A stretch of DNA of 64,000 nt from Flavobacteriia bacterium (GTDB taxonomy: Bacteria > Bacteroidota > Bacteroidia > Flavobacteriales_D > Crocinitomicaceae): NCBI GenBank assembly GCA_016178305.1, contig JACOTM010000073.1, positions 1-64,000 of the forward strand, in the 5' to 3' direction. A program made the position numbers and the translations under genes. This document shows, piece after piece, positions 1 through 9,983 of the stretch. The stretch's first letter is position 1; every line of letters begins with the position of its first letter. Under the pieces are notes generated by a model. The model saw nothing but the letters and a program-made list of their open reading frames with translations, did not search any database and was not told the DNA's origin.

Positions 1-2
1 CG

Positions 3-110
3 AATGCTATAGCCGAAAGTGTTAATGCTAAAATTAAAGATGCTATTAGACAAAATAAAGGATCAAGAGATTTGGACTTTTTTCATTATAGGATTGCAAT
101 AATTATTTAA
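3..110 (+). CDS. Transposase, C-terminal end only (IS element, cut by window edge)
   Basis: The reading frame is open from the window edge to a TAA at 108-110 and gives about 35 residues containing NAIAESVNAKIK, QNKGSRDLDFF and HYRIA. This resembles the extreme C-terminus of DDE transposases, where an N-A-x-E-S-x-N-x-K-I-K block is followed by a G-x-R-D-x-x-F-F block. The glutamate in AES would be the last residue of the catalytic DDE triad if the assignment is right. The rest of the element lies left of the window and its terminal inverted repeat could not be identified. The element ends next to the RiPP locus that reads toward it. The transposase-tail call is good; the exact IS family is uncertain (ISAon1/ISL3-like is a guess). 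Confidence 0.6.
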   Translation, partial: NAIAESVNAKIKDAIRQNKGSRDLDFFHYRIAIII

Positions 111-257
111 GCTCAGCACCTCAAAATAATTTTAACCCCATTTGGAATAAATACAAATTTTTCTCTTTGTAAATCGTAAATTATACTCCTATTTATTCCT
201 TTTACTGGAATGCAATTTGCATGTAAATACCAGTTGTTATTATTATTGCTAACCATT

Positions 258-446
258 TTAAATTAATTTTATTTTACTGATTAGTTTATAGGGTAAACAA
301 CAAAAAATATTTGAATTATGCTTTTGGGAATACTCTTTTAGGTAAAGTCTATATTTTGAAGAGTCTTTTACCTTCCTTTCAGTTATATTAACATAGTGAA
401 AAGGGATAGGAAGTTCATCCTCTATTTTTTTTAGTTTCTTCATCAT
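258..446 (-). CDS. Small ORF overlapping the end of the ATP-grasp gene, function unknown
   Basis: The 62-residue frame starts with two consecutive ATG codons inside the last 32 bases of the upstream ATP-grasp gene, in another frame. Such overlap suggests translational coupling. The product is basic, with a Lys-rich N-terminus (MMKKLKKIEDELP), a Lys/Tyr/Ser middle and an FCCLPYKL segment near the end. I recognise no domain. It lies between a peptide maturase gene and a transposase remnant, so it may be a RiPP accessory protein, the start of a gene truncated by the insertion, or a chance frame. The overlap and position are the only positive evidence. Confidence 0.35.
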   Translation of the reverse strand: MMKKLKKIEDELPIPFHYVNITERKVKDSSKYRLYLKEYSQKHNSNIFCCLPYKLISKIKLI

Positions 447-1380
447 GTGAAATTAGATAATTAGCAACTTTTTCTTCTAAATAATAATTACAGGGATAAG
501 ATATCATACCAAATTGTCCAACTGGATTAATCTCTAAAAAATAATATTGATCATTAGAAGAATAAATTAAGTCCACTGAACCAGTTGATAAATTCAACTC
601 TTTAAATAATTTAATTAATTTATCAGTAATAAATTCAGGTAGTTTATAAGGGGTGTTCCTATTTGGTCTATTCCAATCGTAATGTCGGAAATCCAATTTA
701 GTTTTTTCATTTTCTTGAGAAAATATTGCCATTGAATAGATTTTATTGTCAAGAAAAAAGGCTCTAATTTCAATTTTTTTTATTATTTCTTGTTGAAATA
801 AAGAATATGGGAAAAATGATGGTATCACTTCAATATTGTCAATTTTTGAAGTATACATCATATATAAGTTATCTTTATCTTGCATCATTATCCCATCAGA
901 CAATGGCTTACAAATTACATTTTTTTGATTTTTCAAAAAAATATTCAAGTTTTTTTTTGAATTTGTCACAATCGAATTTGGAATTTTTAATCCAATTTTT
1001 TCAGCTTTAGCAAGAACGTGTAATTTATCAAGTGTTGCATTTTCAGGATTAGACAACCAATTGGAGTTAGAATATTTATTAAAATACAAATTACTTGCAT
1101 GTTTAAACTCTTTAGTTAAAAATTCATAAGTAGAATGAAATACATTCTTATCTTTAAAAATTTTTGATTTTAAATTAGGCAAAGGTACTCCCCATTTTCT
1201 GTACCATACAGAATGATTTAATGAATCGTATTTTTTGTTGTTACTAATTCTTATTTCTCTTTGATATTCATAAAAATCTTCAAAGTTTATTCTTAAAAAT
1301 GGATGATCATACAAGTACAAATAGTCTACAACTTTATCGGTTGTTGTTTCTAAATCTTTTTTTGAAAAAATAATTACCAT
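415..1380 (-). CDS. gwsG: GwsG-like ATP-grasp peptide maturase (graspetide-type RiPP enzyme)
   Basis: The 321-residue protein matches the ATP-grasp enzymes that install ester or amide cross-links in graspetide-like precursors. The N-terminus (MVIIFSKKDLETTTDKVVDYL then FLRIN) has the family pattern of a short beta strand followed by D-x-x-T-x-x-V. A central NWLSNP block lies near residues 107-112, a likely ATP-contacting lysine near 158 (ICKPLSDG), and an E-x-R-A-F-F segment near 204. The C-terminal metal and phosphate region is DLIYS plus LEINPVGQ near 270-289. It lies 42 bases after two double-glycine precursor genes, as in grasp-with-spasm clusters. The usual SPASM-domain partner is not seen here; an IS element sits downstream where it might be. 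Family call strong, chemistry inferred. Confidence 0.8.
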   Translation of the reverse strand: MVIIFSKKDLETTTDKVVDYLYLYDHPFLRINFEDFYEYQREIRISNNKKYDSLNHSVWYRKWGVPLPNLKSKIFKDKNVFHSTYEFLTKEFKHASNLYFNKYSNSNWLSNPENATLDKLHVLAKAEKIGLKIPNSIVTNSKKNLNIFLKNQKNVICKPLSDGIMMQDKDNLYMMYTSKIDNIEVIPSFFPYSLFQQEIIKKIEIRAFFLDNKIYSMAIFSQENEKTKLDFRHYDWNRPNRNTPYKLPEFITDKLIKLFKELNLSTGSVDLIYSSNDQYYFLEINPVGQFGMISYPCNYYLEEKVANYLISHDEETKKNRG

Positions 1381-1422
1381 AAGCGTAATAAATAGGTTAC
1401 CCTAAAAAGGGTAACCAGATTT

Positions 1423-1602
1423 TTAATCACAATTACATGTCCAAGAAGCTGTTTCTTCATCTGCTGGACAATTCCACTTATCATAAGTGATTTCTGTAAG
1501 TTTAAATTTCGTAGGTTCTCCTCTTAGACCTCCATTTATTGAAGACATATCAATTGCCTTGCTTTCAAACTTACCAGAATTAATTTTTTCTAATTTTTTC
1601 AT
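1423..1602 (-). CDS. RiPP precursor peptide B, GG leader with Cys-rich core end
   Basis: The peptide has 59 residues. The start used is the ATG at 1602, directly after an (AAT)n run, because it gives the leader MKKLEKINSG that parallels the neighbouring precursor; an upstream extension to 1668 would overlap that gene. The leader ends in SSINGG at residues 24-25, a double-glycine cleavage site typical of peptidase-coupled ABC export. The core contains TEITYDKWNCPADEETASW and a terminal CNCD, so Thr/Ser donors and Glu/Asp acceptors are both present, as needed for omega-ester linkage by the adjacent ATP-grasp enzyme. The core shares no obvious sequence with precursor A beyond a short Cys-x-Cys end. 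Confidence 0.7.
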   Translation of the reverse strand: MKKLEKINSGKFESKAIDMSSINGGLRGEPTKFKLTEITYDKWNCPADEETASWTCNCD

Positions 1603-1612
1603 ATTATTATTA

Positions 1613-1798
1613 TTATTTAGTTGGACATGGACAACCATCACTGTTAATAGTTTTGGTTGAAGTTTCACGATCGTTATCAGTTGTGTAAACAGTTGTTACA
1701 ACAGTAGTTTCTGATCCATTTATACCACCAACAACTGTGAATAAAACTTTTTCATCTAACTGAAACTTCTTTAGTTTTAAACTTTCAAATTTTTTCAT
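1613..1798 (-). CDS. RiPP precursor peptide A, GG leader with repeated Thr-Thr core
   Basis: The peptide has 61 residues. The leader MKKFESLKLKKFQLDEKVLF is followed by VVGG at residues 22-25, the double-glycine processing site also present in precursor B. The core holds three spaced Thr-Thr pairs (TTVV, TTVY, TTDN) followed by acidic DNDRE, then TSTKT and a C-terminal CPCP segment. Regular Thr pairs next to Asp/Glu are the hallmark of graspetide cores, where an ATP-grasp ligase joins hydroxyl side chains to carboxylates. It is the first gene of the minus-strand locus, 10 bases before precursor B. The cross-link pattern cannot be read from sequence. Confidence 0.72.
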   Translation of the reverse strand: MKKFESLKLKKFQLDEKVLFTVVGGINGSETTVVTTVYTTDNDRETSTKTINSDGCPCPTK

Positions 1799-1958: not shown

Positions 1959-2227
1959 TAACTATCTTAACTCTTCATAAACTTTTAAACATAAAAATCC
2001 ACTTAGAGCAACTATTATCATTTCCGTTCCGCACTGAAGAATAATTCTTCTCTCCTATAAAATCAAACTAATTAATTTAGTTTGTGGTTGGTCTTCGACC
2101 TAATTCAAATTTGCAGTAGAAAATTTAACTAGTTATTTTTTGGTTTTATGTTGTTTTCTAATTCAACACATTGATAAACACTCGATTTTTTGAAATGTTA
2201 AATTTTCGATGACAACCGCTTTTCAAA

Positions 2228-2269
2228 CGATGAAAGAGGTATTTTGATTGTTTTAAAATTCTTTCATCG
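2228..2269. repeat. Perfect 10-base inverted repeat with 22-base loop
   Basis: CGATGAAAGA (2228-2237) is repeated inverted as TCTTTCATCG (2260-2269), upstream of tlyA. It could be a hairpin in the tlyA leader, a protein-binding site or a small mobile-element remnant. No T-run follows, so it does not look like a terminator. Confidence 0.5.
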
Positions 2270-2442
2270 CAAAAAAGTTGTTTACCACATTCAAATATAA
2301 AACAACAAAATGATTGTTATTCCAAAACAAGATACTAGGCATAGAGGCATCATTCGTTAAAGTTTCTAAATCAATTTTAACACCTAAAGATTTGAAACTT
2401 ATTTTTTCTGCTGCATCAGAAATTTTCCCCTACCTTTACAAA

Positions 2443-6777: not shown

Positions 6778-7347
6778 ATGACGGATATAGAAATCATTAA
6801 CGCTATTCGTAGGGGCGATTTGGAAAAACCTATTCAATCACTTTATAAAGAGTTTCCCAAAATAAGGGTTTTCTTACTAAAAGGAGGAGGAAATGATACA
6901 ATTATACCTGAAATATTCAACGATAGTTTAGTATTATTAATAGAGAAAATTTCAGACAACTCTTTTGAACTTTCTTCTAAACTTTCTACTTATTTATCAG
7001 GAATAAATCGTTTTTTATTAAAAAATGAACTCCGTAAAATTGCTAACAAACCATTAATATCCCTTGATTCTGACCGTAATTATTTAGAATTAGAGAATGA
7101 ATTTGGTTATGATTTTGAAAAAGAAGAAAAACTAAACGCCCTTGAAGGAATATTAAATACAATCTCTGAAAAATGTAAACAAATCTTAAGTTTATTCTAT
7201 TTTGAAAAAAAAAATATGGATTACATTGCTGATAATCTAGGTTTTTCATCTGTCAATTCTGCAAAAACACAAAAATACAAATGTCTAGAAAAAGCACATC
7301 AATTGGCAAATGAATCAATTATTCACGTTGAAAATTCTGTATTATGA
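6778..7347 (+). CDS. RNA polymerase sigma factor, ECF/sigma-70 family
   Basis: The 189-residue protein has the layout of a small alternative sigma factor. A region-2-like segment (FNDSLVLLIEKI, then STYLSGINRFLLKNELR) is followed by a C-terminal region-4 helix-turn-helix: SEKCKQILSLFYFEKKNMDYI, then ADNLGF and KTQKYKCLEKA. It would direct RNA polymerase to a specific promoter set. Its stop overlaps the next gene's start by 4 bases (ATGA), so a membrane partner is made in stoichiometric coupling, as for anti-sigma factors. The region-2 sequence is divergent, so the exact subgroup is uncertain. Confidence 0.8.
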   Translation: MTDIEIINAIRRGDLEKPIQSLYKEFPKIRVFLLKGGGNDTIIPEIFNDSLVLLIEKISDNSFELSSKLSTYLSGINRFLLKNELRKIANKPLISLDSDRNYLELENEFGYDFEKEEKLNALEGILNTISEKCKQILSLFYFEKKNMDYIADNLGFSSVNSAKTQKYKCLEKAHQLANESIIHVENSVL

Positions 7348-9983
7348 GATCCGAATTAAATATCCTTGAAAAAATAGATGCCTACATCAATCATTCCATG
7401 TCAAGTTCGGAAAGAATCTTATTTCAAAAAGAAATTGAAGCATCTCCCGAAATTAAAAAAACAATCGAAATCCAAAAATTAATTGCACAAGCAGTTATTC
7501 GTAAAAATATTAAAGCTCAAGTCCAATCATTTGCTCCTGTTATTCATTCAAAAATTACTTTTTGGAATAAATATAAATTACCTATCATATTCTCATCCTT
7601 TACAATCCTATTAATTACAGCAATAAGTATAATTAATCATTTTTCAACTGCTCATTCTATCGAAAATAGCTCCCGAAATAAAACATTTATAATTAAAAAT
7701 AAACCTCTTTCAATTACTCAATCATCGGTAACAAAAAATGTGAAAAAAGAAGTTATTTCATTTAAAAAAGATTCTATTCCATCGAACAACACTGGTGTAA
7801 AAAACATTTTAACCTCCTTGGTTCAACAAAAAAAATCAGTTGATCATAAAAATCCATTTATTGAAAACGAAAAGGATTTAGATGGCTTAAAACCTTGGAT
7901 TAACGTAAAAAGTCAACATTATCAGATTGATACCGAAACAGGGAAGACAATCATCTGTAATGAAGGTACATTAATTGTTATTCCTAAAAATGCTTTTTGC
8001 GATAAATTTGGAAAAAATATTACCGGAATAATAGATTTGGAAATTATTGAAGCTTTAGACATGGCAGATATGATTGCTTATAACTTAACGACAACAGCAA
8101 ATAACAATGCCTTACAATCAGGAGGAATGATTTATATTCAACCAAGAATAAATGGTGAAAAAATGTTTATTTCCCCTGAAAAACCAATTCATATCGAAAT
8201 ACCTACGAAAAAATATAATGCTCAAATGTTAGCATGGAAAGGAGAAGTAAATTCCGATGGAAATATCAATTGGACAAATCCAAAGCAACTCGATAAATTT
8301 CTAATACCCATTGATTTCAAAACATTAGATTTTTTACCCGATGGATTTAAAAATGCCGTAAAAACAATACTTCCCTATCATAATCACACAAAAGCAACTG
8401 ACGAATTGGTTGATAGCCTATACTATGCATTATCAACCGAAGGATTACAAAAAGCTTACGATCTAGAACTCCCCATAAAGGTTGACTTTTCCAATAAAAC
8501 TACATTAAAAAAAGATCGTTTCTTTCATAAATGGTCAAGTCGATATTTTATCAATCAAATTGATTTGCGACAAAATCATGCTTTTAAAATACTAAACCTA
8601 ACACCTAATGAAATACAAACAGCAACGATAAAGGTACAAGCTGGCAAAACGAATATTACACCATCAATTGATCAAAGTGGAATTGTATATTTCCCAATTA
8701 ATACCATAAAAACATTTAAAAACATTAATATCTCTATTCAAACAATTTGTTCTAATATTATCATTTACAAAAACATAAAATTAAAAAGGAAAAAAATAAA
8801 TACACTGTCTTTTACAGGAAAAAAATGCATGATAAATGAATCGATAAATTCAACATCCCAATCCAATCAAATTGTATCTAAACATTGTTATATTGACCCT
8901 ATCATTATCAAAACAATAAAATCAACTATTTATAAAAATACGTTTATTGCTACAAAAGAATTTGAAGAACGATTGAAACAACTTCATAAAATACCAAATG
9001 GGGAAATTTATTTAAACTTATATATCCAAAATTTGAATAAAAATCTATTTGAAATCGATCAATTAATCTCAAATCAAATCGACACAAAATACAAAGCTAT
9101 ATTTCAAGAATTTGCCAATCAAAAATGCACAAATATTGACAACAATGATGTTAATATCGCAGAACTTAAAAACTTTTACAATAAAACTAGAAATCAATAT
9201 CAGCAAGAAATCGAACGCAATCAAGCAATTTATAACAAATTAAATAATCAGCAAATGAATTTTATAGAGAATAAAATTAATACCTTAAATTCTCTATTTA
9301 AAACACAAACATTTTCGAGACAATCTTTTCAAAAAGCAACAACAATTGAAAAAGAAAGTTACGGGAATGAAAACACAATTAACATCACAATCCTTCCTAT
9401 TTCTCAAACACCTTCTTACAATGTATCATGGAATTCAACTGGATGGATGAATATTGATGCTTATCTTCATTTATTAAGCTCTGGTGAAAAGATTGTTTCA
9501 ATAATACCTGCTACCGAACAAGGAGATCAACATATTTATCAATGTATCAATACATTAAAAACTATCATTCCATTAAATCAAGTGAACCAAAAATGTGAAG
9601 CCCATTTTCCAATTGAAGGAAATGAAGGCTCACTCGAGATGAAAGATACATATTGTGTCGGAATTCATAAAGAAAATAATCTCCTTAGTTATTCTGAAAA
9701 ATGTTACAACCCTTATACCATTTCAGAAATAAAATTGAATTGGATAAACGTAACAGAAAAAGAATTACTTGAAAAGCTAAAATATCTTTCTCCTTCAAAT
9801 GATGTTTTAATACAATCTATGAACAATGAATTAGTACGATTAGATAAAGAAAAAAAGCAACAAGAAGAATATGCAAAAATCCAAGCACGTATTAATCTCA
9901 TTAATGAAAAAATTCTATTCGAACAAGAAATAAAAAACATCTTAATCAATTCTATTAATTCATGTATTGATATCGGAAATTAA
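7344..9983 (+). CDS. Large single-pass membrane protein, putative anti-sigma partner with extracytoplasmic region
   Basis: The 879-residue protein has a cytoplasmic N-terminus of about 78 residues (ILEKIDAYINHSMSSSER, resembling anti-sigma N-termini), one transmembrane helix near 79-99, and a long outer part. Near 200-300 a beta-rich segment contains GTLIVIPKNAFCDKFG, then GIIDLEIIEALDMADMIAY and ALQSGGMIYIQP, like a carboxypeptidase-regulatory or ZU5-like fold seen in Bacteroidetes envelope proteins. The C-terminus is rich in Lys, Glu and Gln and probably coiled coil. It overlaps the sigma gene start-to-stop. Known anti-sigma factors are much shorter. I infer that it senses an envelope signal and holds the sigma factor; its ligand is unknown. 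Confidence 0.6.
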   Translation: MRSELNILEKIDAYINHSMSSSERILFQKEIEASPEIKKTIEIQKLIAQAVIRKNIKAQVQSFAPVIHSKITFWNKYKLPIIFSSFTILLITAISIINHFSTAHSIENSSRNKTFIIKNKPLSITQSSVTKNVKKEVISFKKDSIPSNNTGVKNILTSLVQQKKSVDHKNPFIENEKDLDGLKPWINVKSQHYQIDTETGKTIICNEGTLIVIPKNAFCDKFGKNITGIIDLEIIEALDMADMIAYNLTTTANNNALQSGGMIYIQPRINGEKMFISPEKPIHIEIPTKKYNAQMLAWKGEVNSDGNINWTNPKQLDKFLIPIDFKTLDFLPDGFKNAVKTILPYHNHTKATDELVDSLYYALSTEGLQKAYDLELPIKVDFSNKTTLKKDRFFHKWSSRYFINQIDLRQNHAFKILNLTPNEIQTATIKVQAGKTNITPSIDQSGIVYFPINTIKTFKNINISIQTICSNIIIYKNIKLKRKKINTLSFTGKKCMINESINSTSQSNQIVSKHCYIDPIIIKTIKSTIYKNTFIATKEFEERLKQLHKIPNGEIYLNLYIQNLNKNLFEIDQLISNQIDTKYKAIFQEFANQKCTNIDNNDVNIAELKNFYNKTRNQYQQEIERNQAIYNKLNNQQMNFIENKINTLNSLFKTQTFSRQSFQKATTIEKESYGNENTINITILPISQTPSYNVSWNSTGWMNIDAYLHLLSSGEKIVSIIPATEQGDQHIYQCINTLKTIIPLNQVNQKCEAHFPIEGNEGSLEMKDTYCVGIHKENNLLSYSEKCYNPYTISEIKLNWINVTEKELLEKLKYLSPSNDVLIQSMNNELVRLDKEKKQQEEYAKIQARINLINEKILFEQEIKNILINSINSCIDIGN

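Follow-up and report, generated by a model that had tools for sequence, protein, structure and literature searches.

The window, as we call the whole 64,000-nucleotide stretch of DNA analysed here, carries on its minus strand two genes for GG-leader precursors and one for a GwsG ATP-grasp ligase, according to its ORF list, the translations and profile searches (Table 1). The sequence-only reading had described positions 258 to 1798 as two tandem GG-leader peptides with a GwsG-like enzyme. These ORFs are present as described, but the picture of a three-gene locus was incomplete: an LPL-family gene, a gwsS gene split by an insertion sequence (IS) and a truncated exporter gene also belong to it. 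The stretch 258-1798 stops just before the start of gwsS (256) and the end of the IS (1-138); the remainder of gwsS and the exporter gene piece lie on a second contig of the assembly, C12.

Table 1. Coordinates of the features at the locus, in the window unless contig C12 is named.
Feature	Position	Strand	Details
Right end of ISL3/ISAon1-type insertion sequence	1..138	+	transposase C-terminus at 3-110
Target duplication CATTTGGA	139..146	.	8 bp; same 8-mer adjoins the IS on C12
gwsS, 5' piece	139..256	-	codons 1-39 plus one base; ORF 256-113; TIGR04193 positions 2-35
gwsS, remainder	contig C12, 18775-19674 (or to 19683)		located by TIGR04193
LPL-family small protein	258..446	-	62 aa; between gwsG and gwsS
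gwsG, ATP-grasp ligase	415..1380	-	321 aa; TIGR04192
Precursor B	1423..1602	-	59 aa; INGG leader end at residue 25; core ends C-x-C
Precursor A	1613..1798	-	61 aa; VVGG leader end at residue 25; Thr-pair core, C-x-C end
Repeat of C12 17376-17807 (C39 stub plus tail)	2085..2416	.	direct orientation once the contigs are joined at the IS
Second C39 exporter gene remnant	2256..2423	-	78% identical to the C12 stub over 59 residues (tblastn); profile positions 52-96

The leaders of the two precursors end alike, as had been noticed from the sequence, and their local alignment score was equalled by none of 1000 shuffles. The cores had been called different, one with repeated Thr-Thr pairs (precursor A) and the other ending in CPADEETASW-CNCD (precursor B). 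The sequences are as quoted, but the difference was overstated, since only 18 of 1000 shuffles equalled the core/core score and the C-x-C end, a pattern found in 1 of the 81 cores of relatives (a sample including the best 80 of 551 loci), is common to both; the cores may thus have a weak common skeleton rather than being fully unlike. Core A contains 10 Thr, 3 Ser, 2 Lys, 3 Asp, and 2 Glu, and core B 5 Thr, 1 Ser, 3 Lys, 3 Asp, and 4 Glu, so that each combines the Thr/Ser/Lys and Asp/Glu residues of a graspetide core. For precursor B, an 81-aa form with a GTG start was rejected as over-long in favor of an ATG start, with which the leader has its usual form.

The comparison of the precursors with family profiles, proposed along with the sequence-only reading, gave a divided answer. 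A leader profile made from the upstream ORFs of relatives, with the window peptides left out, scored precursor A at 20.8 bits and precursor B at 23.1 bits, above all of 1709 antisense control ORFs (best 19.6 bits, next 15.9; the threshold of this strict filter was set on these ORFs at 15.9 bits). The curated precursor models, however, stayed below their cut-offs, with 15.2 bits versus 25 for precursor A (TIGR04149) and 17.6 bits versus 25 for precursor B (PF14406). Searches of the relatives' regions outside the window with phmmer returned nothing strong (best E 0.029 for A and 0.081 for B); therefore, the two cores are not common to the sampled relatives.

GwsG scored 275.7 bits against TIGR04192 (cut-off 230, E 5.1e-82), an equivalog-level match, and fell under the cut-off for the MvdC and MvdD models. 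All residues invariant in 15 aligned GwsG proteins are kept in it, including K119, K158, E204, R206, D230, R232, D270, E283, and N285, and its predicted structure (pLDDT 88.4) found its best PDB matches in the graspetide ligases CdnC (7mgv), MdnC (5ig9), and AMdnB (7m4s). The graspetide-type class proposed from family knowledge is thereby confirmed at the level of the enzyme. CdnC, the best match (full length, 22% identical), belongs to the chryseoviridin system, which resembles the window locus in having several precursors; unlike those of the window, its precursors carry a microviridin-type leader motif according to the part of PMC8939145 available. The LPL ORF (446-258) reached 23.5 bits (E 3.2e-6) with a profile of the relatives' proteins at the same position, against 13.2 bits for the best of 1000 shuffles, and has the LP motif and the YKxISK end of many of these proteins. 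A C-terminal YKxISK-like end is seen in many LPL proteins; a mention of it was not found in the available text of PMC8939145.

The left end of the IS forms the end of contig C12, and the remainder of gwsS lies near this contig end. By itself, this piece scored 267.5 bits against TIGR04193 (cut-off 175) and 27.7 bits against PF13186 (cut-off 21.5). The left end occurs, always at 100% identity, at 12 places, one of them C12, with eight of the 12 identical over all 125 bases, and a terminal sequence is common to all 12 left ends and all seven right ends compared. The 35-aa transposase end gave family matches below cut-off only (NF049917 28.2 bits, PF01610 18.5 bits). When the flanks in the window and on C12 were joined with one copy of the 8-mer, the gwsS frame stayed open through FIPNDLFDIL, which resembles FIPNDLFDFI of locus L066. 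The insertion point is codon 40, in the N-terminal domain. A partner 8-mer was likewise present for five of the seven right ends compared. The sequence TAATTTTA was also considered as the target duplication and rejected, as the comparison of 12 left and seven right ends places it within the element. The only full-length TIGR04193 match in the assembly is the split gwsS, so that the intact GwsS above the TIGR04193 cut-off that marks a grasp-with-spasm locus is lacking here. This high-copy ISL3-type element stands at many contig ends of the assembly (12 left ends and at least eight right ends), and its 8-bp duplications pair several of the contigs.

The exporter gene is reduced as well. C12 carries a 110-aa stub covering positions 3-94 of the 133 of the C39 peptidase profile PF03412, and this profile had no other match over the assembly. 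Relatives with a C39 gene in view commonly have a full exporter of about 730 aa, while the full C39-ABC exporter expected near a grasp-with-spasm locus is represented here by the stub alone. The second C39 remnant and the repeat of the stub and its tail lie upstream of the precursors in the window; both C39 pieces of the genome end at profile position 96, and a genome search with the repeat, at E up to 0.001, gave no further match. Joining C12 to the window at the IS places the operon between direct repeats holding the C39 stub. Between gwsS and the stub, a 271-aa ORF (L005:17970-18785, minus strand, contig C12) matched no Pfam or NCBIfam family and has a lipobox-like start. It might be of the cluster 23 type of PMC8939145.

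TIGR04192 was matched in 40 of the 240 genomes of the family, above cut-off in 18, and a query with a single protein of the window locus (P0003) found no relative among the genome contigs. The sample of relatives comprised 100 regions, 80 of which were the best 80 of 551 loci given by an alignment query. Since the relatives were selected by gwsG, their frequencies are biased. In this sample, including the best 80 of 551 loci, gwsS lies at most 700 bp downstream of 99 of the 106 gwsG-like ORFs; among the 103 distinct gwsG, 96 have gwsS, with a small ORF between the two in 94. The precursor-like homologues foreseen beside related ATP-grasp genes were indeed found: by the leader profile, in the same sample with its best 80 of 551, at least one precursor accompanies gwsG in 59 of the 103 distinct loci and at least two in 16, both figures being lower bounds owing to the strict filter. 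Chitinophaga loci, L084, L087-L089, and L091 among them, have tandem precursor pairs with like leaders and different cores. A single ligase serving two such cores had been thought notable, yet branch 5 graspetide loci often encode several unrelated precursors, as already described in the accessible part of PMC8939145.

As far as that text goes, the window locus shares with the branch 5 loci the ATP-grasp ligase and SPASM protein (TIGR04192/TIGR04193), the dissimilar GG precursors, the C39 exporter, and the LPL protein directly before the SPASM protein; unlike them, it has an IS-split gwsS and a mere stub of the exporter. It may belong to graspetide group 14 of PMC13097080. Taken together, the locus is very probably a Bacteroidota-type graspetide operon with the grasp-with-spasm pair GwsG/GwsS, now decaying; its host is probably one of the Crocinitomicaceae. 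As such it is one more member, and a probably decaying one, of a large graspetide group, no characterised product of which was found in the literature available. This headline finding is ordinary; the parts worth a second look are the pattern of exporter stubs and the missing radical-SAM motif.

The C39 genes were surveyed in 120 regions of relatives, in C12, and in the window up to 12 kb. The survey gave 63 full C39-ABC genes (three gwsG loci being counted twice). Of the partial genes that do not lie at a sequence end, 19 were N-terminal stubs and none was a C-terminal piece alone. Four stubs were left out, two taken as other C39-domain proteins (L085 and L113, the latter with a frame of 527 aa) and two near contig ends (L098 and L122); L071, with a degraded C39 gene, was not among the 19. 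The remaining 15 short 5' stubs occur in 10 genomes including that of the window, and in nine of these gws genes lie on the same contig (C12 and the window being taken as joined), the exception being L196 on a 3.3-kb contig. Within arrays, the C39 5' ends have 67-100% DNA identity, at least 80% in 11 of the 13 pairs, versus a between-locus median of 61.8% and 95th percentile of 70.6% (n = 1569). The two pairs below 80% (72.6 and 67.4) both involve the outer stub of L056, and five pairs span less than 240 bp (81, 81, 231, 88, and 132 bp), the last being the window pair at 82.6%. Full gwsG or gwsS pairs within the same arrays are 26-41% identical, and fragments 19% to 59%. Some units bounded by stubs have no gwsG and consist of a GG-leader peptide and a membrane protein of 164-168 aa (L194:15799-17917, L197:1683-2705); perhaps these are another peptide system using the same exporter.

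The 15 5' stubs without a 3' remnant suggest a recombination anchor. GG-peptide cassettes might be swapped in Bacteroidota by homologous recombination at the C39 5' end and the preceding gwsS 3' end, with a 5' stub closing each unit and a single full exporter, at the 3' end, common to the whole array. A cassette would comprise either the precursors together with GwsG, LPL, and GwsS or a peptide and a membrane protein, and the window operon would be a cassette left between two stubs after loss of the full exporter. Plain tandem duplication ending in C39, or chance decay, would instead give the stubs no role in cassette exchange, and we give this alternative about an even chance of being right. 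Duplication, too, would leave stubs of the 5' end and nothing of the 3' end; no stub lies between the cassettes of L062, L066, L101, L143, L086, and L154, six of the seven loci with at least two gwsG; and the repeats in L120, L159, and L066 also take in the gwsS 3' end, so that the shared part is wider than C39. Against it, the full genes of the stub-bearing arrays are as unlike each other as those of different loci (gwsG 40.7% and gwsS 28.4% in L056, gwsS 35.6% in L197), although the C39 5' ends in these arrays reach 85.8% and 93.2% DNA identity, and the units of GG peptide and membrane protein are bounded by stubs too. Since most tandem gws loci have no stub, the repeats are wider, the sample is biased toward gwsG, and duplication is an alternative, we regard cassette exchange as possible rather than probable. 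If true, it would help to explain why similar ligases stand beside unrelated precursors, and exporter 5' ends serving as anchors would both account for precursor diversity and offer a simple signal by which to search for it. No description of such stubs was found in the available portions of the literature on graspetides, cassette recombination, and RiPP transporters.

The second point concerns the nature of GwsS. CX3CX2C is the cluster motif of radical SAM enzymes. It was absent from all 96 distinct GwsS of the relatives (a sample including the best 80 of 551 loci) and from the window genome's own C12 fragment, while the same pattern search recovered a MiaB-like control. Another same-strand ORF of 250-600 aa with the motif was found within 4 kb of gwsG in only one of 95 loci (L159, upstream of a C39 stub). 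Four cysteines are common to all 96 GwsS and also occur in the fragment. The GwsS of locus L085, modelled with 35 sequences (pLDDT 91.2), matched TbiB1 over residues 1-83 (Z 9.2, rmsd 3.0, 80 residues) and, with lower scores, MccB and TruD, in regions that we take to be RRE domains. From residue ~92 onward it matched PqqE (Z 12.1, rmsd 5.6, 198 residues), TigE (Z 11.9 over 291 residues), and SuiB (Z 11.3). Foldseek scores over the whole length were modest (best TM 0.42), and the GwsS profile had weak matches only among PDB sequences (best E 0.005, a designed barrel). The relative's model thus has the RRE-like, barrel, and SPASM parts of SuiB, TigE, and PqqE, and PF13186 is matched in the window genome's own fragment; unlike these radical SAM/SPASM maturases, GwsS has no CX3CX2C.

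The accessible text of PMC8939145 names a radical SAM enzyme in branch 5 and applies the term to the GwsS-type protein, and it supposes thioether or carbon links to core cysteines. A true radical SAM maturase of this kind would fit the likeness of the model to PqqE, TigE, and SuiB and the presence of Cys in 48 of 81 cores of relatives (sample including the best 80 of 551); but with CX3CX2C, in that spacing, in none of the 96 GwsS and in another nearby ORF at only one of 95 loci, we consider it unlikely. On these data, the name pseudo-radical-SAM protein with an RRE suits GwsS better. The available part of PMC10352776 mentions pseudo-rSAMs from a different family, and partner-dependent ligation has a precedent in that of PMC13097080. 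Our guess is that GwsS is an RRE-bearing adaptor presenting the leaders to GwsG. Should GwsS have no radical-SAM cluster, there would be no basis for the proposal of radical or thioether chemistry at these loci, and the question to pursue would be partner-dependent ligation.

In an intact system, both precursors would be bound through their alike leaders, and GwsG, with GwsS and LPL as partners, would use ATP to activate the Asp/Glu side chains of the cores, which would be closed onto Thr/Ser/Lys to form lactone or lactam rings. Cleavage behind the GG and export of the product would then fall to the C39-peptidase ABC exporter. In the window genome, the IS splits gwsS within what appears to be the leader-binding-like N-terminal domain, and with the 110-aa stub as the sole C39 match the pathway probably cannot finish. 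Intact ORFs remain for the precursors, gwsG, and LPL, which recent decay would leave, but so would partial use. A gap between the 124 contigs of the assembly might also hide a gene, though completeness is given as 99.99. The operon might still work, with GwsG, perhaps together with LPL, modifying both peptides without GwsS and export being supplied in trans. The kept invariant residues of GwsG and the intact ORFs would fit this; yet gwsS accompanies gwsG in 99 of 106 relatives' ORFs (sample including the best 80 of 551), and the assembly holds neither a further PF03412 match nor a full-length TIGR04193 match other than the split gene, which makes this very unlikely. That the split is an assembly effect or a population polymorphism rather than a fixed break is highly improbable, for although both contigs end in the high-copy IS and their junction is therefore not assembled, both flanks carry the same 8-bp duplication at the element ends, the frame continues across them, and five of seven right ends pair likewise. 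Further along the window, an 879-aa ORF lies at 7344-9983 (plus strand), after a 189-aa ORF at 6778-7347.
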